From: Pseudomonadales bacterium | GTDB lineage: Bacteria > Pseudomonadota > Gammaproteobacteria > Pseudomonadales > Pseudohongiellaceae | Direction of reading: 5' to 3' | Length of the DNA: 33,132 bases | Assembly (NCBI GenBank): GCA_028279115.1 | Contig: JANQSV010000109.1 | Location: 1-33,132, forward strand | In this document: in pieces, positions 5,224-19,368 of the stretch | Position numbering within the stretch: position 1 is the stretch's first letter | Layout of the letters: every line of letters starts with the position of its first letter | Notes under the pieces: generated by a model | What the model was told of the DNA's origin: nothing | The model's input: only the letters and a program-made list of their open reading frames with translations | Database searches by the model: none | Position numbers and translations under genes: made by a program

Positions 5224-6276
5224 CTATGATGTCGCGACCGCCGCTTTCCGTTGCCAATCGCTCGCAGCGCCGAGCACGGCCAATTGCCCGTGTTCAACCA
5301 GACAAATGGGCACATTCATCAAGAACGGATTAACGGTCCCCTTGTTCAGAAACCTTGTCATGAAGGATTCATTGCGCCGGATAAGGTCCGATAGTTGTGA
5401 TAAGACTCCGCCAGCCAAATAAACACCTCCATGCGTTCCCGAAGCGAGCGCGAGGTCGGCCGTCATGCTCCCCAGCGCTCCACAAAAAACATCGATCGCA
5501 CGCGCGGCGATCGGATCACTTCGCGCGCGCGCGGCATCTGCGATGTCCGCCGGGTCGCCTAGCAAGGCCGCTCGCCCGGAAATCCCGCAAAGCGTCTGGT
5601 AAAGGGTCAAGAGACCAGGTCCGGATAAAATCCGCTCCATCGGCACATGACCGTCATCAGGCATCAGCACTTTCAGGATTTCCAGCTCAAGCCGTGACGA
5701 TGGCGCGAAACTCATCTGTCCAGCTTCACAGTCAAGCACGACCGGATCACCATTTCCGCATGGTACACGGATTGCCGCGCCAAACCCGGTTCCGGCGCCA
5801 ATTATGAGTATTGGTTGGCTGGCATTGCAGAACAGCAAACCATTTAAAGGTTCAACAACATTGGCGTCAATATGATCAATCCCATGCGCCAGCGCATAGA
5901 AATCGTTGATAATATTAACCGCGCTAAAACCTAACCGCTTTTTGATTTCGTCCACTCGAATACCCCATTTGAGATTGGAATTAACGACATTCCCACCGGA
6001 TAGGTATCCCGCCACAGCAATCGATATCCCACCAATGTTTGGCGTGTTGTGTTCAGTCAAGAAAAGCTCGATCAACTCCTCAAGACGCGCAAAATCAGCA
6101 CAAAAATATTTTTGGTAGCTTATTATCTCAGCTTGCGAATCCGACCCACCGGGAACATCCACAACAGCAAGTCTGGCATGCGTGCCGCCAACATCCGCGG
6201 AAAGCACAAATTGCCTTTGCTCCCGATGCCGCTCTCCAATGCGCCGGAAAAGACCATAATCGTTGGTAACAGTCAT
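5224..6276 (-). CDS. glk: Glucokinase-family sugar kinase, probable GlcNAc kinase
   Basis: 350 residues of the Glk family (hexokinase/actin ATPase fold). The phosphate-binding motif DVGGTHARLAVVDV is near residue 28, the catalytic segment INDFYALAHG near 120, the adenosine-side motif GAGTGFGAA near 157, and GGVYLAGGV near 290. The family phosphorylates glucose with ATP; in this operon, downstream of a sugar symporter and a SIS-domain deaminase, N-acetylglucosamine is the more likely substrate (inference; Glk-type kinases replace NagK in some GlcNAc pathways). It starts 9 bp after the symporter stop, so it is the last gene of a minus-strand operon. No typical ROK zinc motif is present, which separates it from NagK of E. 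coli. Confidence 0.82.
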   Translation of the reverse strand: MTVTNDYGLFRRIGERHREQRQFVLSADVGGTHARLAVVDVPGGSDSQAEIISYQKYFCADFARLEELIELFLTEHNTPNIGGISIAVAGYLSGGNVVNSNLKWGIRVDEIKKRLGFSAVNIINDFYALAHGIDHIDANVVEPLNGLLFCNASQPILIIGAGTGFGAAIRVPCGNGDPVVLDCEAGQMSFAPSSRLELEILKVLMPDDGHVPMERILSGPGLLTLYQTLCGISGRAALLGDPADIADAARARSDPIAARAIDVFCGALGSMTADLALASGTHGGVYLAGGVLSQLSDLIRRNESFMTRFLNKGTVNPFLMNVPICLVEHGQLAVLGAASDWQRKAAVATS

Positions 6277-6285
6277 TCCCCTCTC

Positions 6286-8022
6286 CTAATGCTGTTTTAT
6301 CGCCGCCAGAGATTCGGCAGGCGCCGGGCCGCGAATACGGACAATGACATAAGCGCCTGTCGCCGCCGCCACACCGAGATTGATTATTGCCCAGAAGACA
6401 TCGCCATAAAGCAGGAATCCAATACCAAAGAGAGTGCCGTAGGTGCCCGCGATCGCCGCGGCGGAGAGGCCCAATCCTTCGAAGAGTTCGCGCCGCGGGG
6501 CGCCTGTCGGCCATGCAATCCGCTTGAAACGGTTTTGCGTCTCACCGGACTCCGGAGACGTCAGCAAAGTAACGGCAACCCAGCCAATCGTGGTCACACC
6601 GACACCCAGCACATATTGCATCCAGTCAGCCATGTCCGGCCCCAGAAATTCGAGCCAGATATTAATCGCAAAAGAAATAATCATAGCCGAGATCTCACTC
6701 CAGGCATTAATGCGAGACCAAAACCAGCGCAGGAAGAACAACAACCCGGTCCCGGCGCCGATTGCGAGGAGAAGTTGGAATGCCTGCAAAGCATCTTCGA
6801 GGATGAGCGCGAAGGCGCCCGCGGCGACCATGAGAAGGATGGTTAAAAGGCGCCCGGCTCTCACTTGCTGTTTTTCGGATGCTTCGGGCGCGATAAACCG
6901 GACATGGATGTCCTTGACCAAATAGGAGGCCCCCCAGTTCAGGCTGGTTGAAATCGTCGACACATAGGCAGCCACCAGAGATGCCGCGACAATACCAAGA
7001 ACCCCCGGCGGCAGCAGGGACAACATGGCGGGATAAGCAAGGTCATTCTGAATGAGACCGCGATCAACATGCGGCAGAGCTGCCGCCAGACTGTCGAGAT
7101 CAGGGAAAACGATCAGAGACGCCAACGCCACCAGCAGCCATGGCCAGGGGCGCAGCGCTATATAGGCGAAATTGAAGAAAGCGGTTGCCGCCATGGCGTG
7201 GCGCTCGTCGCGGGCGGACAACATGCGCTGCGCCACATAACCGCCGCCACCGGGCTCGGCCCCCGGATACCAGGCACTCCACCATTGCACCGCCAAGGGC
7301 ACCAGCAATAAAGGCACAAAACTGTTCGGATCGGAAAAGTCGGGCAGGAAACTCTTTTTATCGACCACGTTCGGGTGCTCAATGAGCTGGCTCAAACCGC
7401 CCACATCAATATGGTTGAGAGCGAAATATGCGGCAAGACACGCGCCGACAAGCGCAACAACGAACAGAATCATATCCGTAATCAGAACTCCGAGCAGACC
7501 GCCAATCGCCGAGAAAGTGACGGTCACAAACCCGGCGACAAGCACAAGCTGGAGCGGTGAAACGCCAAAGAGAACAGCGCCGAATTTGATCGCCGCCAAG
7601 GTCACATTCGCCATGATCATGACATTGAAGAACAGGCCCAGATAGGCCGCCCGAAACCCTCTCAGAAAGGCTGCGGGTTTGCCGCTGTAGCGCTGTTCAT
7701 AGAATTCGATATCCGTGCTGACGCCAAGTCGCCGCCACAGTCGCGCATAGACAAAAGCCGTGATCATTCCGGTGATGAGAAAACACCACCAAGCCCAGTT
7801 TGCGGCCACGCCGTTGGATCGTACAAGGCTGGCAACAAGATTGGGCGTATCGGCTGCGAATGTGGTGGCAACCATGGACGCTCCCAAAAGCCACCAAGGC
7901 ATATTCCGCTCACCCAGAAAATAGGATGAACTGTTCCTCGATGCATATCGGCCAACCAGCAGGCCAATGACAACAATGGTTACCATAAGCCCCGCCACAA
8001 TTACCCAATCAACCGCCGCCAT
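6286..8022 (-). CDS. Sodium:solute symporter (SSS family), probable GlcNAc/amino sugar uptake
   Basis: 578 residues with about 13-14 hydrophobic segments, matching the SSS family. Visible family features: SSSYFLGERNMPWWLLGASMVAT near residues 31-53, the aromatic loop WWSAWYPGAEPGGGGYVAQRM in the middle, and a conserved VAAYVSTISTSLNWGASYLVKD segment near 350 with serines in the region that forms the second sodium site. The protein sits in the inner membrane and couples uptake to Na+. Its place between a NagB-II-type enzyme and a sugar kinase points to GlcNAc or glucosamine as substrate; this is inference, since known GlcNAc permeases (NagP, PTS) are of other families. ATG at 8022 follows a GGAGGAAAC-like ribosome site. 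Confidence 0.85.
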   Translation of the reverse strand: MAAVDWVIVAGLMVTIVVIGLLVGRYASRNSSSYFLGERNMPWWLLGASMVATTFAADTPNLVASLVRSNGVAANWAWWCFLITGMITAFVYARLWRRLGVSTDIEFYEQRYSGKPAAFLRGFRAAYLGLFFNVMIMANVTLAAIKFGAVLFGVSPLQLVLVAGFVTVTFSAIGGLLGVLITDMILFVVALVGACLAAYFALNHIDVGGLSQLIEHPNVVDKKSFLPDFSDPNSFVPLLLVPLAVQWWSAWYPGAEPGGGGYVAQRMLSARDERHAMAATAFFNFAYIALRPWPWLLVALASLIVFPDLDSLAAALPHVDRGLIQNDLAYPAMLSLLPPGVLGIVAASLVAAYVSTISTSLNWGASYLVKDIHVRFIAPEASEKQQVRAGRLLTILLMVAAGAFALILEDALQAFQLLLAIGAGTGLLFFLRWFWSRINAWSEISAMIISFAINIWLEFLGPDMADWMQYVLGVGVTTIGWVAVTLLTSPESGETQNRFKRIAWPTGAPRRELFEGLGLSAAAIAGTYGTLFGIGFLLYGDVFWAIINLGVAAATGAYVIVRIRGPAPAESLAAIKQH

Positions 8023-8039: not shown

Positions 8040-8279
8040 TTCCTGATCATTCTTGAAATTCTAAATACGCCCGCATCGCGCATGATATCCAGTGCATTGG
8101 TGACAAGGGTGATTGGAAAACCAATCATATCCAAAATGACGGCGCGCGACCGCCATGGTTCGGATCGTATCCACGATTGGCCTTCCATCAGCAAAAACGC
8201 CGATGGCGGCCCCGCTTGCAGCCCAACGCGCGGCTTTGCCGTCGCCCGGCAAGATTCGTGCGCCACGCAACACATGCAT
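8040..8279 (-). pseudogene. nagA: Remnant of nagA (GlcNAc-6-phosphate deacetylase)
   Basis: On the minus strand the SIS gene stop and this ATG share bases as TAATG, the mark of a translationally coupled next gene. The product begins MHVLRGARILPGDG, like NagA N-termini, and continues with DTIRTMAVARRHFG, resembling the NagA helix before its GTTG-x-LPTL strand. About residue 55 the frame breaks; the missing piece continues in another frame as TLVTNALDIMRDAG, resembling the NagA segment L-P-T-L-I-T-D. Only some 240 bp remain of a gene that is normally about 1.15 kb, the metal-binding H-x-N/D motifs are absent, and the piece between residues 14 and the helix looks shortened. Operon position (deaminase, here, transporter, kinase) is where nagA would stand. 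Family assignment is from memory of the motifs, hence moderate confidence. Confidence 0.6.
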
Positions 8280-9316
8280 TAACGGGTCACCGTCACTTTA
8301 TTCAGGAAAGGTGGGTTGTCGGGATTCAGCCCCCGCTCGTGCGACAATGCATTAACCATGCGGTAAAAGGTCTGGATTTGCAGAACCGGGGTCAGCACTG
8401 GCACATTTGAGATCGAGAGCGCGGGCAGGTGGACGGCGCCCGGCAGCGCAGCACCAACGGAAAAGCACTTCGCGCCTCGTTCCGAAAAACTCTCCGCCAG
8501 TTCCCCATAGCTGTTTGCAGCTTCGTCCGACGGCACAAAAAACAGAACAGGAAAACCATCCCGCACAATTGTCATAGGTCCATGTTTAACTTCCGCGGCG
8601 CTAAAAGCTTCCGCGTGAAGCGCGCAAGTTTCCTTGAACTTCAACGCTGCTTCTTCGGCGACAGCAAGCCCAGCACCACGTCCGACAACGAACAGGCTTG
8701 AAGCCTCGGAAAAAGACGGCAGACATACCGACCAGTCGAGTTGCCAGGCGGATTCCAATTGCCCGGGAAGCAATCTCACGGCTTCAACGCCCGCGGCATT
8801 TCCCGTCAGGCAAAACACAAGATTGGCTAGCGCGGTCAATGAGCAGATGTAGGACTTGGTCGCCGCAACACTCTGCTCAGACCCCGCGGAGATCGGCAAG
8901 ATAAAATCTGCGATCTCTGCAAGTGGGCTCGAAAGGTCATTGGTAATCGCAATGACTCGCGCACCATTTCTGGCGGCGAATTCGGCTGATATGACCAAGT
9001 CATCACTCTGCCCGGACTGGGAAATACAAATAAAAAATGCATCACCCAACCGCATCGAAGATTGATAAATGGATGCGACAGAAGGCGCAAAGGAAACGAC
9101 GGGGACGCCAAGTTGGGTTTCAAATAGATATTTGCCGTAAAGCCCTGCATGGTCGGAACTCCCCCGCGCGCACATTAGCACAAAAGATGGTGGCCGAATG
9201 TTGAATTCCAACGCGATCGCCGCCAGCCCATTTTCCATATCCGTAAATTGGCTTTGCACCGATGAACTCGAACTACTTGCTTCTTTAAACATCAATGATG
9301 TTTCCGCGACTGACAT
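8279..9316 (-). CDS. nagB-II: SIS-domain aminosugar-phosphate deaminase/isomerase (NagB-II type)
   Basis: 345 residues with two SIS sugar-isomerase domains (about 30-170 and 195-330) and no glutaminase domain, so not GlmS. Motifs seen: ARGSSDHAGLYGKYLFE near residue 50, SQSGQSDD near 100, a Thr/Ser-rich SEQSVAATKSY near 145, and HAEAFSAAEVKHGPM near 235, which is the conserved E-x-x-H-G-P segment of the GlmS/AgaS/NagB-II group. In GlcNAc pathways of this type the enzyme turns glucosamine-6-phosphate into fructose-6-phosphate and ammonia in the cytoplasm. ATG 9316 has a good ribosome site (AAGGGG, 9323-9329 region). It is the first gene of the minus-strand operon nagB-II, nagA remnant, symporter, kinase. 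Confidence 0.85.
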   Translation of the reverse strand: MSVAETSLMFKEASSSSSSVQSQFTDMENGLAAIALEFNIRPPSFVLMCARGSSDHAGLYGKYLFETQLGVPVVSFAPSVASIYQSSMRLGDAFFICISQSGQSDDLVISAEFAARNGARVIAITNDLSSPLAEIADFILPISAGSEQSVAATKSYICSLTALANLVFCLTGNAAGVEAVRLLPGQLESAWQLDWSVCLPSFSEASSLFVVGRGAGLAVAEEAALKFKETCALHAEAFSAAEVKHGPMTIVRDGFPVLFFVPSDEAANSYGELAESFSERGAKCFSVGAALPGAVHLPALSISNVPVLTPVLQIQTFYRMVNALSHERGLNPDNPPFLNKVTVTR

Positions 9317-9431
9317 AGTATCACCCCTTGACCCTTACTGATCCGGCGCGTTATCAAAAAATGACAACGATATTTTTTGTAAAGAAAACTTTTTGCCTCG
9401 CAATTCCCCACTCGCTTCACGCGTCTCTTTA

Positions 9432-9690
9432 TCATCGCGCCATCCGACCATTATCAACCTTAAGGACCGCCCCACTTGCCGTCCGCCCCGCGTCACTTGC
9501 GAGATACGTCACCGCCCCAGTCACGTCACTCACCCGACCGACATGATCCGGAAACAACGGTCATATCCATGATCACAAGCTCCGTGCGCCCGCAACTCGC
9601 CGCAATCCCACCCCGCAACGCTTCCAACACACCACGAGCGCAGCGCGGAAATCACCGCAGATCCGAAGCCCGCTTTTGCACCTTCCGAAT
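9432..9690 (-). pseudogene. Remnant of a short-chain dehydrogenase (SDR) gene
   Basis: Positions 9551 down to 9447 read without a stop as PDHVGRVSDVTGAVTYLASD then AGRTASGAVLKVDNG, ending RMAR and TGA at 9432-9434. This is the C-terminal signature of classical SDRs (V-A-G-A-V-x-Y-L-A-S-D ... x-T-G-A-V-L-x-V-D-G-G). Upstream the frame shifts; fragments such as GFGSAVISALR and TELVIMDMT recall the SDR N-terminal half but the Tyr-x-x-x-Lys active site is missing. About 260 of the normal 750 bp remain. It fills much of the 420-bp divergent region between the deaminase and the chitinase, so that gap is not simply a long promoter. Confidence 0.55.
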
Positions 9691-9720
9691 AGTCGCTCTA
9701 AAATATGATCACGTAGTCAT
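9676..9720 (+). promoter_or_regulatory. Chitinase promoter with palindromic operator (copy 1)
   Basis: A sigma-70-like pair is visible: TTGCAC at 9676-9681, exactly 17 bp, then TAAAAT at 9699-9704. Directly after the -10, at 9705-9720, lies ATGATCACGTAGTCAT, two changes from the perfect palindrome at 16870. A factor bound here would cover the transcription start and repress. The ribosome site AGGA (9726-9729) and ATG 9737 follow. Confidence 0.65.
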
Positions 9721-9736
9721 TTTATAGGAAAAACCG

Positions 9737-11008
9737 ATGCAATCAAGGATTCTTCCCCGGCGACCAAGCCGCCTTGCCGGAAGCAGGCGCAAGGATAAAA
9801 AGGGTACGAAACTGAAAATGTGGCGCCTCGCGCTGATTGGAATGCCGCTGATGACCGGAAGCGCTCTACAGGCAAGCACACAAAACGAAAAGCCGATTAT
9901 CGCTTCTTACTATTCCAGCACAGGGTCATCTGAGAAAGTGGCCGAAATTCCAGCCGCCAAGCTTTCTCATGTTCTCTACGCTTTCCTTACGCTTTGCGGC
10001 GACCATCGAACGGCTGGTCCGGCTGCCTCGGCGCGTGTGGCGGCCGCCTGCGCGAATCAGCCGGACTTCACGGCAACCCGCATTGGCGGCCCTGCCGAGA
10101 CGGAAGAACTCGCGGCCTTCGAAACGCTCAAAGCGGAACATCCACACTTGAAAGTCCTCGCTTCGTTTGGCGGATGGAACCTGTCCGCTCCTTTCCGGCA
10201 AATGGCGAAATCAGATGCCGGCCGGCGGCGCTTTGTCCGCACAGCCATCGAAATCATCAAGGATCATCCGGCTTTTGACGGCATTGATATCGACTGGGAG
10301 TATCCCGGGGGTGGCGACAATTCCTCTCTCCCGCTTGGCTCGGACGAAACCGCAACGGAACGTTACGCCTTCCGGGCAATGATGCGGGAGCTGCGCATTG
10401 GCCTGGACCGTCTCAGCGTGAAAACCGGGCGATCCTATTCCCTCAGTGCGGCTGTCAGCGGCGCGGCCCGGCAGACCGCGTCGATCGACTGGGCGGGAAC
10501 AGCGCCTCACCTGGATATGGTCTTTGCGATGACCTATGACTTCGCGGTCGGCGATGGCGCCGCGACCCATCACGCCAATCTTTATCCTGTCCCAGGCAAG
10601 ACCGCACTCAGCGGGGTCGAGATGATTGAGAATCTTCATATTGCGGGCATTCCCGAGGACAAACTGGTCCTGGGCGCCGCTTTTTATGCAAGAGGCTGGG
10701 AAGGCGCTCGATATCGGAATGGCGCGGTGGTCACACAGGACGCGTCCCAATCCATCGGATCATTTCGTTTCCGGGATTTGCGGGCCAACCCGCCGGACGG
10801 GTATGAATATGCCTATGATACCGATGTGGAGGCGGCGTTTCTGATCAACCGGGAAACTGACGGTTTTATAAGTTTTGATGATCCGCGATCAATTGCCGCA
10901 AAAACGGATTTTGTCAAAAAAAGAGGTCTTGCGGGAATTTTTTCCTGGCAGATAGAGCAGGATGATGGCGCGCTTCTCGACGCCATACATCAAGGCCTCG
11001 CGGAATGA
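9737..11008 (+). CDS. Secreted GH18 family chitinase
   Basis: 423 residues. A GH18 TIM barrel fills most of the protein: IIASYYSSTGS is the first strand, KVLASFGGWN carries the S-x-G-G motif near residue 140, and the catalytic DGIDIDWEYP motif places the acid Glu at about residue 188. FAMTYDFAVGD and GIFSWQIEQDDG near the end are the conserved M-x-Y-D and final Trp segments. It hydrolyses beta-1,4 links in chitin. The start is uncertain: ATG 9737 fits the promoter and ribosome site but gives a basic 27-residue leader; ATG 9818 would begin a neat signal sequence MWRLALIGMPLMTGSALQA. Either way export is likely. It converges on the GH20 gene and has its own operator. Confidence 0.9.
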   Translation: MQSRILPRRPSRLAGSRRKDKKGTKLKMWRLALIGMPLMTGSALQASTQNEKPIIASYYSSTGSSEKVAEIPAAKLSHVLYAFLTLCGDHRTAGPAASARVAAACANQPDFTATRIGGPAETEELAAFETLKAEHPHLKVLASFGGWNLSAPFRQMAKSDAGRRRFVRTAIEIIKDHPAFDGIDIDWEYPGGGDNSSLPLGSDETATERYAFRAMMRELRIGLDRLSVKTGRSYSLSAAVSGAARQTASIDWAGTAPHLDMVFAMTYDFAVGDGAATHHANLYPVPGKTALSGVEMIENLHIAGIPEDKLVLGAAFYARGWEGARYRNGAVVTQDASQSIGSFRFRDLRANPPDGYEYAYDTDVEAAFLINRETDGFISFDDPRSIAAKTDFVKKRGLAGIFSWQIEQDDGALLDAIHQGLAE

Positions 11009-11147: not shown

Positions 11148-13571
11148 CTATGAACGGGTCTCGCCGCCGCGCAGGGGCTGCACCCAGTCAATCACCCAGA
11201 ATGGATCGATTTCAGCGCTGGCAAATTGGAAGCAAAGGTCGTGTTCACCGGCACGCGGCTCAATATCGCCTTCGATCGTCTCCAGACCAAGCCCATCAAG
11301 TCCCGCCAGGGGCAGCCGGGCGATAATGTCGCCCTCGCATGTATCCTGTCGAATCAGCAATTCACCTTCAGCCGTTTCCGGTTCGGGATGGGTAATGCTG
11401 TTGACGGCGTCGCCAACTTGAAAATTGAATGGAATCTGACCGATGCTCAGGCGCATGCCAGTTACATCATCAAGCCGCGCATCTTCATAAATCCAGCATG
11501 GATTGAAAATATCGACATTATAGACAGCACGCTCACCGCGAACCGGCCCGTCATCCTCCAGCCGAAGCACCAGTCCCTCACTACACATTTTCAGATCATC
11601 GTCTTCCCGGCGCTCAATGGTTTCAACTGTGAAAGTCCGTTCAACCGTATCGGCCAGCACACGACCATCATGAAAGGCATTTGCCCGGATGGTGACTGGC
11701 AGCGATTGTTCGAACGGCGCATCGAAGCGCGGCGAAGACGAGGTTGGCTCGGACCCGTCCAGCGTATAGCGGATTTCACCAAACCCTGTCTGGTTTTCCA
11801 GCCGCATCCGGATCAGATCGTTGCCCGCTGTGCGATCAATTCCGACATCGACCTGAAAAGCGCTGTCGGCGTAAGCCAGGCCAAGCGCCTCATATCGCCG
11901 GAACTGAACTGTAAGCCGTTTCAGGAACTCATTGAAATCCTTCGTTTCGCCATCCGTCCAGGCGATTTCGGCCACGGCTGACGCACGCGGAAAGGACATA
12001 TGCGTGACGCGCTCCCGCAGCCGCATATGCTCGGTCCAGATATTCGCCTGGATTCCCAGTATGTGTTTGGCTTCCTCATCGGTAAGCTCATCCGGCCGCG
12101 GATCGTAGACATAGATGTCTTCGAGTGTCTGAACATTGGGTTCGGGGCGCCCGGCCGGTTCATCCCGCAGGCTGCTTTGCGCAAAATCGAAATACAGCAG
12201 CGGCCCCGGGGTCATGACAACATCATTCCCCCGCTTGGCCGCTTCAATGCCGCCAATTTCGCCCCGCCAGGACATAACCGTCGCATGCGGAGACAGACCG
12301 CCTTCCAGGATCTCATCCCAGCCAACCAGTTTACGGTCGTTCTCATGCAGAAACGCCTCGATACGGCGGACAAAATAGCTTTGCAGTTCCTCTTCGGTGT
12401 TGACACCAAATTCACGCATGCGCTCCTGAACCCGCGCCGATGCCTTCCATCGATCCTTTACGGCTTCATCTCCGCCGATATGAATATATGCGCCGGGGAA
12501 AAGCGCCATGACTTCATCCAGGACATCCTCAATGAAGGCGAATGTCTCTTCCTCAACATTGTAGAGATGAGGATAGATTCCCCAATCCGCGCGGAGTTCG
12601 ATCTCTTCACCGGTCACGCCATATTCCGGATAGGCAACCAGCAGGGCCTGCGCATGTCCCGGCATTTCAATTTCGGGAACAACCGTGATGTATCGCTCGG
12701 CGGCGTAGGCCACAATATCGCGCACCTCTTCCTGGCTGTAAAAACCGCCATAGAGACGTGGTTTGCCAGTCACCGGGTCAATATCCGCCCGAGCCGCCTC
12801 GCCCGGCTGAACCCGATACGCTCCAACACTTGTCAATCGTGGATACTTTTTGATTTCCAGACGCCAGGCCTGATCATCAATCAGGTGCCAGTGAAACACG
12901 TTGAACTTATGCAAAGCCATCCAGTCAATGAACTGCTTTATATAGTCAGTGGACTGATAGTGACGCGCGCTATCGAGCATCAATCCACGCCAGACGTAAC
13001 GAGGCGTGTCCATAATCGTGAGCGCCGGAAGTTCAATCGCGGCTCTTTCGCTTTCAACGGATGTCAACATCTGCCAGAGTGTTGTTGCCGCATTGAACAG
13101 GCCGGCGCCTTCACCCGCGCCAAGGCTCACGCCATCATCGGCAACAACAAGCTCATACGCGTCGGAAGCCGTCGCTCCAGGCGCGGTCGCCGTCGTCCGG
13201 AAGACAATGCCGCCCCGCCCATTCCCGCCGGACTCCTGAACCGTCAACTCGAAATCAAACCGCGTGGTCCGCGCCATAAGATCAATAAAGTATTCAGCGA
13301 TGCGGATCGCCTCCGTATCCTGACCGGACACTTCGACCTGGATTGCATTGCTCACGAGGAAGGCGCCCCGCCCCGGCTTTATCACAGCCGGGGCCGGAAT
13401 AATGGATAAGGTATCGGCGGACACTGCAACAGGTGTCAGACCCCGGGAACCTGCCGGATCAGGCCGGGTCGCAGCCGACTGCTCGCCGGCGCACCCTGAA
13501 ACCGCAAGATTGGCGGCAACCATTGCGGCGCCCGCCATTGCCGTCCTCATCCCCGTTAACATTGTCTTCAC
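11148..13571 (-). CDS. GH20 beta-N-acetylhexosaminidase, lipoprotein
   Basis: 807 residues. The N-terminus has a lipoprotein signal: hydrophobic stretch then LAVSGC, with the Cys near residue 28 as lipid site, so it is probably anchored in the outer membrane or periplasm. A GH20b-type N-domain (about 60-175) precedes the GH20 barrel starting at YVWRGLMLDSARHY; the catalytic pair is in HIGGDEAV (Asp368-Glu369), and WHLIDDQAWRLEIKKYP and GWDEILEGG are further family motifs. After the barrel comes a chitobiase-type C-terminal domain (EIRYTLDGSEPTS) and a further about 150-residue beta-rich tail I do not recognise. It removes terminal GlcNAc from chitooligosaccharides. It follows the receptor gene by 107 bp on the same strand and is probably co-transcribed with it. 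Confidence 0.92.
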   Translation of the reverse strand: MKTMLTGMRTAMAGAAMVAANLAVSGCAGEQSAATRPDPAGSRGLTPVAVSADTLSIIPAPAVIKPGRGAFLVSNAIQVEVSGQDTEAIRIAEYFIDLMARTTRFDFELTVQESGGNGRGGIVFRTTATAPGATASDAYELVVADDGVSLGAGEGAGLFNAATTLWQMLTSVESERAAIELPALTIMDTPRYVWRGLMLDSARHYQSTDYIKQFIDWMALHKFNVFHWHLIDDQAWRLEIKKYPRLTSVGAYRVQPGEAARADIDPVTGKPRLYGGFYSQEEVRDIVAYAAERYITVVPEIEMPGHAQALLVAYPEYGVTGEEIELRADWGIYPHLYNVEEETFAFIEDVLDEVMALFPGAYIHIGGDEAVKDRWKASARVQERMREFGVNTEEELQSYFVRRIEAFLHENDRKLVGWDEILEGGLSPHATVMSWRGEIGGIEAAKRGNDVVMTPGPLLYFDFAQSSLRDEPAGRPEPNVQTLEDIYVYDPRPDELTDEEAKHILGIQANIWTEHMRLRERVTHMSFPRASAVAEIAWTDGETKDFNEFLKRLTVQFRRYEALGLAYADSAFQVDVGIDRTAGNDLIRMRLENQTGFGEIRYTLDGSEPTSSSPRFDAPFEQSLPVTIRANAFHDGRVLADTVERTFTVETIERREDDDLKMCSEGLVLRLEDDGPVRGERAVYNVDIFNPCWIYEDARLDDVTGMRLSIGQIPFNFQVGDAVNSITHPEPETAEGELLIRQDTCEGDIIARLPLAGLDGLGLETIEGDIEPRAGEHDLCFQFASAEIDPFWVIDWVQPLRGGETRS

Positions 13572-13678: not shown

Positions 13679-16534
13679 CTACAGCTTGAACCGCGCACCG
13701 AAGAAGAAACGGCGCCCAAATCGACCCTGACCACCAATCCGCTGCGGCACGGCAAAATAGTTTTCGACGGTGTCCTCGTCAGTGAGATTCAGGCCCTCAA
13801 TAAAGAGGGTCACAAATCCCCGGGTGTAGCTGGCATTGAAATCGACCTGCTGAATGCCTTCCGCGAACCGGTTCTGCCCGTTGGACACACCGAGGAAGTA
13901 ATCACTGCGATAGTTGTAAGAGATTCGGGTCGAGATCGAGCCTTTTTCATAGAAAATGCTCGAATTGACCGTATTCCGTGATTGACCGGGAAGACCCGCA
14001 AAGGCGGAGTCGGATACGGAGTTTTCAGAGAAGGTATAGTTTGCACTGACACCAAAGCCATCGAAAGGCTCAGGCAGATTATCAAGATAATGCAGCGCAG
14101 CCAACTCGAAGCCGTAGATTTTACCTCCACCACCGTTCACAGGCCGGGTCACGAGAACGTTCACGAGATTATTCGTGTCACCGCCGAGTGGCACGAACTC
14201 ATTTTCCTGACCACTGACCGTGAAGGAGAGAATATCCTTGTAGAAAGCAGCCGCGGAGACCGCATTCCCTTCGCCATAATAGTATTCGGCTGAAAGATCG
14301 TATCCGTTTGCCACAAAATTATCGAGATCCGGGTTTCCGCTATTAGCCTGCAAGGTCTCTTCAATCACTACAATCGTTGGCGACAATTCGCTGAAGGTCG
14401 GACGCGCAAGCGTTCTGGCCGAGCCAAAACGAACGATGAGATTTTCGGTCAGATCAGCCGCCAGGTTGAAACTTGGAAGAATGTCTGTCTGACTGTCATT
14501 CCGCATGAACGGCTCAGGCACGCCATTGGTAATCAGATTTGCTTCAGACTGCCTCTCAAGATGCGTAATCCGTGTACCTAGATTACCCCGAAGGCTCAGT
14601 CCGCCAATATCACTGGAGAAGTTCACCTGCGCATAACCCGCATAGATGTCTTCCGCGATATCAAAGAACTCGTCAATGCTTGTCACTTCAGCACCCGCAA
14701 AGACGGAGTCATTGCCGTTGCCTTTCCCGAAAAGCTCATCAATCGCCTCGGGATCAGGGATCAGGAAAGCGCTGATCGCATCCTCGAAGCCGCTGCTCAG
14801 GAAGTCATCCGGAGTTTGTGACGGATTGAGCTGACCGAGGTTCAGACCAAAAATGCTGATACCGTTTGCATCAAGGAAGTTCTGAGCGACATCGCCGAAG
14901 GAGGCGACCGTCTGATTGCGATCCTGCGAAACACGGCGGGATTTGAAGCCGGCCTGGACACTTTCGAAGAAACCACTATCGAAATTATAGGTCACATCAA
15001 ACTGGGTATGGAACTCGTCCTGCACCTGATCAAGATTGATGAAGTTGACGAAGCTGAAGAATTGACCCGTAGGATCAAGCAGATCGACGCCGACAGACTG
15101 CTGACCGTTTTCCTGTACGCTGAGATCGAAAGTTTGATCACCAAACCCAACTGTCTCAAAGAAGCGATTGTCGGATTTCACATTGGCGCGTGTATATCCG
15201 ACACTCGTGAAGACTTCGAAATTCCGACCGACCGGCGCCCAGGTTGTCCCAAGATCAACCGCAAATGTGTCAACCATGGAATCGCGATCAAAGGAATCAA
15301 GCGCTGTGGTGAAAACGTTTCCACGAAGACCGGTAAAGTTGACCCCTTCCGTGATCCGCTGCGGAATTGTTCCTGAAATGATCGTCTGGTTTTCAATTAC
15401 GGCATTATTGACGGGTTCAACGATATTGCCCGCGCCACCTGTCCGCAAAGGCAACAAGAGGAAGTTATTGTTTACACCCGTTTCCCGCAACTGCGAGTAA
15501 AGGCCGGTCAGGTGGAAGTTCAGGTTTTCAGTCGGCTGCCATTCGATGGCGCTCGATCCGCCGGCGCGCTCCCGTACAGTCGGAAAGTACGTGTTCGCCA
15601 GAAGATCCGGGAGGAACAGACCATCCGGCGATTGGATCCCCTGAATAACAGGGTTCCCATTCTCATCAATCGTTTCGATACCCTGAATCGTCGGAGCATT
15701 TTCCGGAAGCACGCCAAAACCGCGGGTTGGATCCAGCGTTCCCGCCGGAACCACACCAAAGTCCAGAACACCATCGGAGTCGAGATCGACCGGACGCTGC
15801 GAGAAGCTCAGCGGGCCGGCAGCGTCGCCACGGATGCTCCGTTCGGTGTATGCGCCAGACAAAATGACACCAAACTTATCGTCTGGCGACCGCCACCCGG
15901 CGCTGAGAGAGAAGCGCGGGTCGACTTCGTCGGCCAACGGCGCATAACCACCTTCAATTGATCCGGCCAGCAAATATCTGTCCGCCAAATCGAGAGGGCG
16001 GCGCGTCTTGAGAATAACCGTTCCGCCAACTCCGCCCTCATCAAGCCGCGCTTCCGGCGTCTTATATACCTCGGCAGACGAAATAACTTCCGAAGCGATC
16101 AGAGCAAAGTTGAAGCTGCGACTGGGCTGTTCGTCCTCAAACTGGTTGGATGACGCAATGAACTGCCCATTCAGCAAAGTCAGGTTTTGTTCGGGCCCCA
16201 GGCCGCGAATGGAAATCCGCTCGCCCTCACCCCGACTGCGATCAATCGCAATCCCCGGAATACGCTGAAGCGCCTCGGCAATGTTTTCATCCGGAAAGAC
16301 ACCGATGTCTTCCGCCGAGATGGCATCAACAATCGCATTCGAGTTTCTCTTGACGTCCTGAGCGCGGAGCAAACTTCCGCGAACGCCGATCACCTCCACT
16401 TCATAAATGACAGCTCTTTCATCTTCACGGATCTCATCTTGCTCAGCAACAGGCTGCGCGTCTTGCGCGTACATCGTGCCGGCCAGCATTGCGAAGACGA
16501 GAACGCTTGCGGATGATTTAAGGATATTCACCAT
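13679..16534 (-). CDS. TonB-dependent outer-membrane receptor, probable chitooligosaccharide uptake
   Basis: 951 residues. A signal peptide ends near MYAQDA. The plug domain follows with VIGVRGSLLRAQDVKRNSNA, IAEALQRIPGIAIDRS and RISIRGLGPEQNLTLLNGQ, classic of the large receptors used for sugar uptake in Xanthomonas, Caulobacter and Alteromonas relatives. The rest is a 22-strand barrel ending in GRRFFFGARFKL with terminal aromatic/Leu residues as expected for outer-membrane insertion. Neighbourhood (GH20 gene directly downstream, GH18 nearby, shared operator) makes chitin oligosaccharides or GlcNAc dimers the likely ligand; the ligand is inference. GGAGG about 7 bp before ATG 16534 supports the start. 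A weak hairpin followed by TTTT after the stop may partly terminate before the GH20 gene. Confidence 0.93.
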   Translation of the reverse strand: MVNILKSSASVLVFAMLAGTMYAQDAQPVAEQDEIREDERAVIYEVEVIGVRGSLLRAQDVKRNSNAIVDAISAEDIGVFPDENIAEALQRIPGIAIDRSRGEGERISIRGLGPEQNLTLLNGQFIASSNQFEDEQPSRSFNFALIASEVISSAEVYKTPEARLDEGGVGGTVILKTRRPLDLADRYLLAGSIEGGYAPLADEVDPRFSLSAGWRSPDDKFGVILSGAYTERSIRGDAAGPLSFSQRPVDLDSDGVLDFGVVPAGTLDPTRGFGVLPENAPTIQGIETIDENGNPVIQGIQSPDGLFLPDLLANTYFPTVRERAGGSSAIEWQPTENLNFHLTGLYSQLRETGVNNNFLLLPLRTGGAGNIVEPVNNAVIENQTIISGTIPQRITEGVNFTGLRGNVFTTALDSFDRDSMVDTFAVDLGTTWAPVGRNFEVFTSVGYTRANVKSDNRFFETVGFGDQTFDLSVQENGQQSVGVDLLDPTGQFFSFVNFINLDQVQDEFHTQFDVTYNFDSGFFESVQAGFKSRRVSQDRNQTVASFGDVAQNFLDANGISIFGLNLGQLNPSQTPDDFLSSGFEDAISAFLIPDPEAIDELFGKGNGNDSVFAGAEVTSIDEFFDIAEDIYAGYAQVNFSSDIGGLSLRGNLGTRITHLERQSEANLITNGVPEPFMRNDSQTDILPSFNLAADLTENLIVRFGSARTLARPTFSELSPTIVVIEETLQANSGNPDLDNFVANGYDLSAEYYYGEGNAVSAAAFYKDILSFTVSGQENEFVPLGGDTNNLVNVLVTRPVNGGGGKIYGFELAALHYLDNLPEPFDGFGVSANYTFSENSVSDSAFAGLPGQSRNTVNSSIFYEKGSISTRISYNYRSDYFLGVSNGQNRFAEGIQQVDFNASYTRGFVTLFIEGLNLTDEDTVENYFAVPQRIGGQGRFGRRFFFGARFKL

Positions 16535-16633: not shown

Positions 16634-16662
16634 AGGCTACAACAAAATGATTACGTGGTCAA
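16634..16662 (-). promoter_or_regulatory. Receptor-gene operator (copy 2) over a probable promoter
   Basis: ATGATTACGTGGTCAA at 16647-16662 matches the 16870 palindrome with three changes. On the minus strand TTGACC (16662-16657) inside it could be a -35; a weak TAGCCT (16639-16634) lies 17 bp on. The leader to the ATG at 16534 would be about 95 nt. Confidence 0.55.
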
Positions 16663-16712
16663 TAGCAAAGCCACATATTTCAGGATCATCTCAAAATTTC
16701 CGTCGAATGCTT

Positions 16713-16751
16713 GAGGCGCTGCCGGGAATTCCCGGATCCAGCCTCTTTTTC
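16713..16751 (+). terminator. Terminator-like hairpin in the receptor/PP2C divergent region
   Basis: The outer stem GAGGC/GCCTC (16713-16717 with 16741-16745) encloses a perfect 14-bp palindrome CCGGGAATTCCCGG (16722-16735) and is followed by TTTTT on the plus strand. It has the form of a rho-independent terminator for rightward transcripts, yet no rightward gene precedes it. The rest of 16535-16977 holds the two operators and no gene I can support. Confidence 0.5.
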
Positions 16752-16863
16752 TAGATATTTATTACCAAGATGCCATCCGGGAGCAAGGTGGCGTGACACA
16801 CGGTCGCTCCCGCCCCGGCAGCCGGCGAGTGGCGAAGCATAGAGAAATAAGGGTGAAAACTTC

Positions 16864-16892
16864 TTGCAAATGATTACGTAATCATTTAATGT
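16864..16892 (+). promoter_or_regulatory. PP2C-gene promoter with perfect palindromic operator (copy 3)
   Basis: ATGATTACGTAATCAT at 16870-16885 is its own reverse complement over all 16 bp, with the central CG typical of LacI-family operators. It lies within the spacer of a possible promoter, TTGCAA (16864-16869), 17 bp, TAATGT (16887-16892). A bound factor would block RNA polymerase. The next rightward gene is the PP2C phosphatase. Confidence 0.6.
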
Positions 16893-16977: not shown

Positions 16978-17832
16978 ATGGGTATCACTCTTTCCTATCA
17001 TCGCTCTGACAAGGGCGATGGGCAATTTAACGAAGACACCTACGGAGCAACGAAAAGCATGGCTTGGCTATTGGATGGCGCGACGGGTCTCGACAGCTTA
17101 CTCATCGAAAACAGATCCGCTGCGAATTGGTTCGTCAATACCTTTTCCGATGTATTGAAAATACTGAGCAACGAACTGACAGATATCTCAAGCATGGATT
17201 TGCTAAGGCAAGTCTCTGACAAGGTGCGAGATCTTTATCAACAACAAATCAAAAATTGTCCCGCCGATACTTTGCCTCCTTCGAGCACCTTGGTTATGGT
17301 GAGAGAATTTGATGAAAAGATTGAGATTTGCGCACTCGGAGACTCTCGCGCAATCTTTGATCTCAAGGAAAGCGGGATCACAACATTCGGCTCCTCTCCA
17401 ATAGAGGATTTCGATAATGAAGTATTGCAAAAGCTGGAATCTCTACGACTCGAAGATCCAAACATTAGTCTACCCCTGGCTACTGAGCATCTGCATTCGG
17501 ACCTGATGACTATCCGGCAACGCAAGAACACTGCAAATGGTTATTGGGTTTTATGTCCAGTAGACAACCCATTTGATCATATGCAAGTCATTCAGCTAGA
17601 AAAAGATGAGATTGTTGGAGGTGAAATTCTTGTCGCAACTGATGGCTTTCTGAGATTGTCGGAAGTGTTCGGGCACTGCGACAATGGGCATCTTTTGCGC
17701 ATGAACGATAGTCAACTCGGCGCAACATTTGAAAAGTTGCGTCAATTGGAAAAAGGAGATCAATCCGCTATCCACTATCCACGTCTGAAGTGCTCTGACG
17801 ATGCGACATGCTTGAGAGTAGATATTCTCTAG
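16978..17832 (+). CDS. PP2C-family protein phosphatase
   Basis: 284 residues from ATG 16978; a GTG at 16909 would add 23 residues without family likeness or a ribosome site. PP2C motifs appear in order with their metal-binding acids: FNEDTYG near residue 15, WLLDGATG near 28, STLVMV and CALGDSRAIFD near 105-125, VATDGFLRL near 222, and SDDATCLRV at the end. It should remove phosphate from Ser/Thr of a protein in the cytoplasm; no membrane segment, kinase or sensor domain is attached. The DNA is AT-richer than the chitin genes to its left, like the LacI gene to its right. A perfect copy of the locus palindrome lies about 95 bp upstream, tying it to the chitinase and receptor. Its target is unknown and no partner kinase is in the window. 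Confidence 0.82.
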   Translation: MGITLSYHRSDKGDGQFNEDTYGATKSMAWLLDGATGLDSLLIENRSAANWFVNTFSDVLKILSNELTDISSMDLLRQVSDKVRDLYQQQIKNCPADTLPPSSTLVMVREFDEKIEICALGDSRAIFDLKESGITTFGSSPIEDFDNEVLQKLESLRLEDPNISLPLATEHLHSDLMTIRQRKNTANGYWVLCPVDNPFDHMQVIQLEKDEIVGGEILVATDGFLRLSEVFGHCDNGHLLRMNDSQLGATFEKLRQLEKGDQSAIHYPRLKCSDDATCLRVDIL

Positions 17833-17851: not shown

Positions 17852-18120
17852 CTATGGAAGCGCCGGCCAGAGGTTCGGCGGCGTCCACCGCCGTTCCCGG
17901 TGCGGAGCCGGCCGCAGTCCGTCGTGTTCGTCCAGGTCTTCGCATCCCGGCGTCAGTGCGCACACCCGCTGTCGGACCATCGCCCGGAGCGGATGTTGGC
18001 AACTGGCCTTGCGGCGCGAATCGGTCAGCGCCCGCACGACCCGGACGGTCAATCCGGCATCCGACCGACCTGACGCAAAAGCGACATGCCGCCGTCGGCG
18101 CTGACCGCGCTACCAGAAAA
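17852..18120 (-). pseudogene. IS1380-family transposase N-terminal fragment
   Basis: The minus strand reads FSGSAVSADGGMSLLRQVGR (from about 18119) and then, after a frameshift, ALTDSRRKASCQHPLRAMVR followed by QRVCALTPGCEDLDEHDGLR. This matches the start of IS1380-type DDE transposases (S-x-D-G-G-x-x-L-L-R-E-V ... H-S-x-x-x-L-x-R-Q-R-V-x-x-I-A-x-G-Y-E-D-x-N-D-x-D-x-L-R). Only about 85 of some 450 residues remain and no inverted ends are evident. It is much more GC-rich than the PP2C and LacI genes it separates, and it fills most of the 486-bp gap 17833-18318; the rest of that gap shows nothing. Confidence 0.65.
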
Positions 18121-18318
18121 ACCGATCTCCATAACGCGGCTCGACTTGGAAAACGAACGAACTCCGGGATACAATCCGCCATGAGCGGAGTGTCCTTGGA
18201 TATCAGCCCAAGCAACTTGAATTATATCGAAATACGGGTGCTCCGCCTGCCCCGTTCATGCGACATTCGGGTTAACTTGACGATGTTTGCCCAAGCAGAT
18301 TTTGGAGAAAGATGACTG

Positions 18319-19368
18319 ATGCGCCCAACAATTCGAGACGTTGCCAAGCTCGCCGGTGTGTCTGCAAAAACAGTCTCTAGAACCATCAATGATGAATCGA
18401 CTGTTCGCCCACAGACCAAAGAGAAGGTCAGAGCGGCAATCCAAGAGCTAAAGTTTCATCCAGATCTCTCGGCTCGCGATCTGCGCGGCAACACATCTTA
18501 TTCAATTGGTCTTGTTTATGCCAACCCAAATGCCAACTATGTCATAAGCTTACAGAAAGGTACACTAAAACGTTGCCGAGAAGTTGGCTACGGACTTCAG
18601 ATTTTCCCATTTGATACATCCGATATGGATGTTGAAATGCTTACCAATCTTCTGTCCAAGTCACGCTTGGCAGGTTTGGTTTTAGCCCCTCCGATGTCCG
18701 AAAACCGTGAATTGCGCGAAGCGCTAAACAAGCTGGATATTCCATTTGTTGGAATCATTTCAAGTACGACTGAAGAGGCCTTATCAGAAAATACTGTCGA
18801 AAAAGTCGTTGATATCGTACTTGAAGATGAAAAGGCGGCATTTGAGATTACAGAGCACTTGATCTCAATCGGTCATAGAAGGATCGCATTCCTGCCAGGA
18901 GATACATTGCATGGTTCAACTCGAGCTCGATTAAGAGGATACAGATCTTGTCTACAGAGTTTCGGCTTTGACGTACGATCTGAACTTATTCCCGACGGCG
19001 ACTACAGCTTTTCATCAGGTTTTAAGAGAGCTGGAACGCTGCTCGCAATATCTAACCCGCCGACAGCAATAATTGGCTGCAATGATGAGATCGCATGTGG
19101 AGCGCAAATGGCAGTCATCAGCCAAGGAGTAAGAGTTCCCAGCGACGTATCGATTGCGGGTTTCGAAGACAGCCCGTTCTCCAAACACACCTATCCGCAC
19201 ATAACGACGGCGCGCCAGCCAACAGAAGGGCTCGGTCACATGGCCGCTTCGGAACTCCTCAAACTGGTTCGGCCGACGAATGACCATAAAGCATCGCCCA
19301 AACGAGCCATCCGTCTCAAACCGGAGCTGATTATCAGAGGATCGACAAGTGTCAGATCAAAGCAGTAA
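18319..19368 (+). CDS. LacI-family transcriptional regulator of the chitin/GlcNAc locus
   Basis: 349 residues. The N-terminal helix-turn-helix reads TIRDVAKLAGVSAKTVSRTI with the hinge VRAAIQELKFHPDLSARDLRG, then a periplasmic-binding-protein-like sugar sensor with YSIGLVYANPNANYVISLQK, LISIGHRRIAFLPGD, AIIGCNDEIACGAQ and VPSDVSIAGFEDSPFSKHTYP, all canonical LacI/GalR segments. Ribosome site GGAG is at 18304-18307. It most likely binds the three 16-bp palindromes with central CG found at the chitinase, receptor and PP2C promoters, releasing them with a GlcNAc or chitobiose derivative (inference). No copy of the palindrome lies directly before this gene; it could be read from the PP2C promoter, although an IS remnant lies between. 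Confidence 0.9.
   Translation: MRPTIRDVAKLAGVSAKTVSRTINDESTVRPQTKEKVRAAIQELKFHPDLSARDLRGNTSYSIGLVYANPNANYVISLQKGTLKRCREVGYGLQIFPFDTSDMDVEMLTNLLSKSRLAGLVLAPPMSENRELREALNKLDIPFVGIISSTTEEALSENTVEKVVDIVLEDEKAAFEITEHLISIGHRRIAFLPGDTLHGSTRARLRGYRSCLQSFGFDVRSELIPDGDYSFSSGFKRAGTLLAISNPPTAIIGCNDEIACGAQMAVISQGVRVPSDVSIAGFEDSPFSKHTYPHITTARQPTEGLGHMAASELLKLVRPTNDHKASPKRAIRLKPELIIRGSTSVRSKQ

Follow-up and report, generated by a model that had tools for sequence, protein, structure and literature searches.

Three palindromic sites, at positions 16870, 16647 and 9705 of a window of 33,132 nucleotides from a Pseudomonadales bacterium (the whole stretch of DNA analysed here), are probably operators of the LacI-family regulator encoded at 18319. 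This protein appears to be a relative of NagR with drifted DNA specificity, and it would repress a TonB-dependent receptor (TBDR), a chitinase and a PP2C-type phosphatase until a GlcNAc-derived inducer is present. From the sequence we infer that, without inducer, a dimer of the regulator would occupy 16870, 16647 and 9705, and more weakly a site at 9358, to repress the genes for PP2C (from 16870), chitinase and receptor, and perhaps those for NagB, symporter and kinase. Once chitin or GlcNAc products are taken up, the repressor would let go of the DNA in response to a GlcNAc-derived metabolite, and the PP2C protein may then act on a phosphoprotein during amino-sugar use.

The window encodes GH18 and GH20 enzymes, a TBDR, a NagB-II-like SIS protein, a sodium:solute symporter (SSF) and a kinase, the gene neighbourhood of a NagR regulon (Table 1). 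Third-codon GC is 0.44-0.64 in the block from 5224 to about 19365 (0.46 in the PP2C gene and 0.44 in nagR), versus 0.67-0.82 in the flanking genes, and no LacI relative above 38% identity was found among 36 sampled genomes of the same genus. The block thus looks acquired. The gap between the nagB-type and chitinase genes contains, at 9434-9536 on the minus strand, a short stretch with a weak match (E 0.0014) to the C-terminal end of a short-chain dehydrogenase.

Table 1. Genes and candidate operators of the chitin/GlcNAc block, in window coordinates
Feature	Coordinates	Strand	Basis or position
Glucokinase-family kinase, probable GlcNAc kinase	5224..6276	-	sequence comparison
Sodium:solute symporter, probably for uptake of GlcNAc or chitobiose	6286..8022	-	sequence comparison
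SIS-domain glucosamine-6-phosphate deaminase, NagB-II-like	8279..9316	-	below NCBIfam equivalog cut-off
Weak fourth candidate site AAAATGACAACGATATTTTTTG	9358..9379	.	~42 bp upstream of nagB-type SIS gene
Third candidate operator ATGATCACGTAGTCAT	9705..9720	.	16 bp before GH18 ATG
GH18 chitinase	9737..11008	+	
GH20 beta-N-acetylhexosaminidase	11148..13571	-	
TonB-dependent receptor, TonB-Xanth-Caul type	13679..16534	-	TIGR01782
Second candidate operator ATGATTACGTGGTCAA	16647..16662	.	112 bp before TonB-dependent receptor start codon
Candidate operator AAATGATTACGTAATCATTT, perfect 20-bp palindrome	16868..16887	.	core ends 92 bp before PP2C ATG
PP2C-type phosphatase	16978..17832	+	Pfam PF13672
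Broken DDE (group 1, PF13701) transposase remnant, two frames	17902..18144	-	between PP2C and nagR
LacI-family regulator, NagR clade, recognition helix VS-A-K-TVSRT	18319..19368	+	Pfam; tree; helix comparison

The three sites had been proposed in a first-pass annotation, and we found their sequences exactly at these positions. The 16-bp core at 16870 sits in a larger, 20-bp perfect palindrome (AAATGATTACGTAATCATTT, 16868-16887); none of the other sites is perfect. The site at 9358 is the next-best match in the window for a matrix built from the three sites; on its left it carries one classical NagR half-site, AATGACAAC. The first-pass annotation had also placed each site at a plausible promoter. 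All three are intergenic, and those at 16870 (92 bp from the start codon) and 16647 (112 bp) fall within the range of 30-140 bp before the start codon that holds more than 75% of LacI-family sites (PMC4052901). The placement of 9705 has to be corrected: because it ends 16 bp before the chitinase ATG, this site would lie at the transcription start or in the leader, directly 3' of a promoter-like TTTGCA-18-TAAAAT at 9675-9704 (0.4 such sequences are expected by chance). No sigma-70-like promoter near 16870 passed the scan at spacings of 16-18, and inspection by eye shows only TTGCAA and TTTAAT on either side of the palindrome at a spacing of 15 bp, a weak resemblance.

Phylogenetic analysis of the regulator supports its assignment to the NagR clade (42 rows, support 99/96), in which the rows are named NagR from gene neighbourhood and operator, not from experiment. 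Its nearest neighbours in the tree are a Luteimonas protein and a paralogue from its own genome on contig C299, on a long branch whose exact place is uncertain. The closest relatives, from the same order, Alteromonadales and Luteimonas, are 42-50% identical, and identity to the relatives as a whole is only 40-50%, which together with the long branch counts against the proposed regulon. Many relatives have a kinase, nagB, GH20 or SSF gene as a neighbour. NagR of the LacI type is an established regulator (PMC5343134), and deletion of nagR in Shewanella derepresses nag genes (PMC5424254). The window resembles the LacI-type NagR regulons of Shewanella, Alteromonadales and Xanthomonadales (RegPrecise; Yang et al. 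2006; PMC5343134; PMC2996990) in its LacI-family regulator, in the even palindrome with a central CG, and in a cluster containing a TBDR, chitin-degrading enzymes, NagB-II, a kinase and a permease. It differs from them in the core of the operator (TGA[TC][TC]ACG versus TGACARCG), in the first residues of the recognition helix (Ala-Lys versus Ile/Phe/Leu-Lys), and in the PP2C gene that stands between receptor and regulator.

The equivalent intergenic regions of related loci hold TGACARCGYTGTCA sites, with the consensus AATGACARCGYTGTCATT (TGACA-RCGY-TGTCA), and these operators share the frame and outer bases of the window motif. In the three strong sites of the window, bases three and four, counted from the centre, depart from this consensus. 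Of the 96 half-sites in 28 related loci, 94 have A as the third base and 89 have C as the fourth; in the six half-sites of the window the third base is never A but always T or C, and the fourth is T (four) or C (two). The first-pass annotation regarded the motif as unlike any familiar GlcNAc regulator motif. On sequence comparison it is instead a diverged LacI-type NagR box and not a new kind of site, since the NagR frame and outer bases are kept and only the third and fourth bases have changed.

The protein side of this interface is altered as well. The first residue of the recognition helix is Ala in the window regulator, Phe, Ile or Leu in its NagR-clade relatives, and Lys in more distant Pseudoalteromonas proteins. 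This residue tracks the core of the operator: Phe occurs with TGACAACG, Ile with TGACAGCG or TGACAACG, Lys with TGACACCG and Ala with TGA[TC][TC]ACG. Those passages of Camas et al. (PMC2978694) that set out the LacI recognition code couple this helix residue to bases 5, 4 and 2 from the centre, and they discuss no coupling to the third base. Since the regulator belongs to the NagR clade and the NagR frame is retained, with site and helix altered in step, a shared regulon of chitinase and receptor is likely. The window offers a clear natural example in which a LacI-family repressor and its candidate operator have changed in concert, the one at a helix residue and the other at core bases. Loci L070-L102, mostly from Pseudoalteromonas, encode LacI proteins with a Lys-Lys recognition helix beside TGACACCGGTGTCA palindromes, with a glucokinase-type gene where checked.

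The PP2C protein matches PF13672 at 30.5 bits (cut-off 24), and its NED, DG, GDSR, TDG and DDAT motifs are intact; an alignment of five sequences shows no variation at D33, D122, D222, D274 and D275. The metal-binding and catalytic motifs of PP2C (PPM) phosphatases are therefore present. A search by sequence found no relative of solved structure, and a single-sequence structure model (pLDDT 34.5) was too poor to use. A role in defence was rejected as there was no PADLOC match, and a phage origin was rejected after 50,697 phage records yielded a single match, at 23%. The gene is absent from the sampled genomes of the same genus and the same family, so its candidate operator cannot be checked by conservation. 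Six further genomes of the order carry distant homologues, some lying beside creC/creD and a siderophore receptor.

The nearest homologues of the PP2C protein are only about 30% identical. Homologues at this level of identity are found on sphingomonad plasmids among nagA, nagB, anmK, murQ, TBDR and symporter genes. In other Proteobacteria the PP2C gene directly follows nagA, in the arrangement murQ, BadF-type kinase, GntR, nagB, nagA and PP2C, with a gap of 12-15 bases between nagA and PP2C in several such loci. We found murQ, kinase, nagB or nagA genes within 6 kb of the PP2C homologue in 13 of 41 sampled tree loci. These 13 fall into a pair of well-supported groups and a lone row, indicating that the association is clustered by descent and is not one event on the tree; the other 27 loci have other neighbours, so the association is not universal. 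The window protein is nearest by path to the sphingomonad set, a weak grouping (64/83). PP2C genes thus placed, within or next to amino-sugar operons, belong to several bacterial families (loci L196, L215-L218, L242, L245, L250 and L165-L168). A published link of PP2C with nag or MurNAc genes was not found in the literature searched, and the presence of PP2C in amino-sugar operons is apparently a recurring arrangement that this literature does not describe.

The alphaproteobacterial operons of the GntR (NagQ-like) type, with murQ, BadF-type kinase, nagB, nagA and PP2C, share with the window a PP2C of the same broad homology group. They differ in having a GntR in place of the LacI regulator, in the PP2C itself (~30% identity), and in serving MurNAc/GlcNAc catabolism where the window has a chitinase cluster. 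We suggest, tentatively, that in Proteobacteria one branch of PP2C phosphatases is devoted to amino-sugar use, recruited under GntR control in Alphaproteobacteria and LacI/NagR control in the window, that it dephosphorylates a regulatory or metabolic protein during GlcNAc or MurNAc use, and that the operator of the present NagR copy has changed, perhaps keeping it apart from its NagR-clade paralogue in the same cell. PP2C in amino-sugar operons would then provide a testable route from the use of chitin and cell-wall sugars to protein phosphorylation. The PP2C of Mycoplasma pneumoniae, which removes phosphate from HPr(Ser-P) (Halbedel et al. 2006, as cited in PMC2937029), is likewise tied to carbon-source control; it serves as a precedent for a possible role only, and HPr(Ser-P) as a target of the window protein is only a suggestion.

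The first-pass annotation had one regulator controlling all three genes and a phosphatase switched on with chitin use. That claim is supported in part. Its chitinase and receptor part is likely for the reasons given above; the phosphatase link is strengthened by the homologues in amino-sugar operons, and 16870 may serve PP2C in place of, or along with, the divergent TBDR gene. Three points argue for an action of 16870 on PP2C: it lies 92 bp before the ATG, it is the best site, and operons containing PP2C occur elsewhere.

In the main rival reading, 16870 and 16647 would be the paired operators of an ancestral divergent promoter between the TBDR gene and nagR, with PP2C a later bystander and 16870 only helping to repress the receptor. 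In most Alteromonadales loci the TBDR gene and nagR stand side by side and are transcribed away from each other, with several operators in the gap, so 16870 may be inherited from such a promoter. In the window PP2C occupies the expected place of nagR, and the transposase remnant between the two genes indicates that the region has been rearranged. A matrix scan of the window found no operator before the gene of the regulator itself, which also counts against the regulon proposed here. We nevertheless consider the bystander account less likely, because 16870 is the sole perfect palindrome of the set and stands at a typical distance from the PP2C start, because PP2C homologues occur in nag operons elsewhere, and because PP2C and nagR are both low in third-codon GC and so may have arrived together.

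Control by the regulator at 18319 has also to be weighed against another protein of the same cell. The genome encodes six LacI-family proteins, of which the one on C299 also belongs to the NagR clade, and the sites could be those of one of the other five or of a regulator from a different family. We regard this as improbable, since the paralogues include at least two that have their own candidate operators, of different sequence: the C412 regulator adjoins CTGACAGCGCTGTCAA, and the C299 paralogue has AACGGACAACGTTGTCCGTT, a perfect palindrome between the regulator and a divergent cluster. In addition, the three sites adjoin the 18319 regulator, whose recognition helix is the unusual one. It is plausible that the altered operator keeps this regulator apart from related repressors in the same cell, and the NagR-clade paralogue, with its different candidate operator, adds a contrast within one genome. 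The C299 cluster (L257, 4286-12605; operator at 5587-5606) encodes a TBDR, a glucokinase-like kinase, a GFO/IDH oxidoreductase and a symporter, neighbours that make it probably a cluster for another sugar. Contig C360 (L255, 1429-6936) contains a separate MurNAc/GlcNAc cluster with murQ, a nagB-like SIS gene, nagA, a BadF-type kinase and a symporter, in which there was no PP2C match. No good site was found at the nagA loci elsewhere in the genome (C360 and C74), which speaks against the proposed regulon.

A pattern search for the 16-mer within three mismatches returned only nine places in the whole 3.35-Mb genome, versus one for a control pattern. Three of the nine are the window sites, all intergenic and clustered within 1% of the assembly; the remaining six all lie inside open reading frames. 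In shuffled windows 0.06 matches are expected at up to three mismatches, versus three in the window, one of which is the query itself. A set of just three sites is small for a motif, and this too counts against the regulon. That their resemblance is due to chance, as might be feared of only three sites picked by eye, was already disfavoured and is very improbable in light of the shuffles, of the confinement of all other genome matches to reading frames, and of a motif frame equal to that of the NagR operator, which was recovered separately from the relatives. A relaxed core, TGAYNACGTNRTCA, composed post hoc after the sites were seen, has four exact places in the genome, namely the three window sites and one on C239. 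This extra match lies inside an Hsp70-like reading frame, beside AAA-ATPase and LPD38 proteins, and was rejected as a regulon member.
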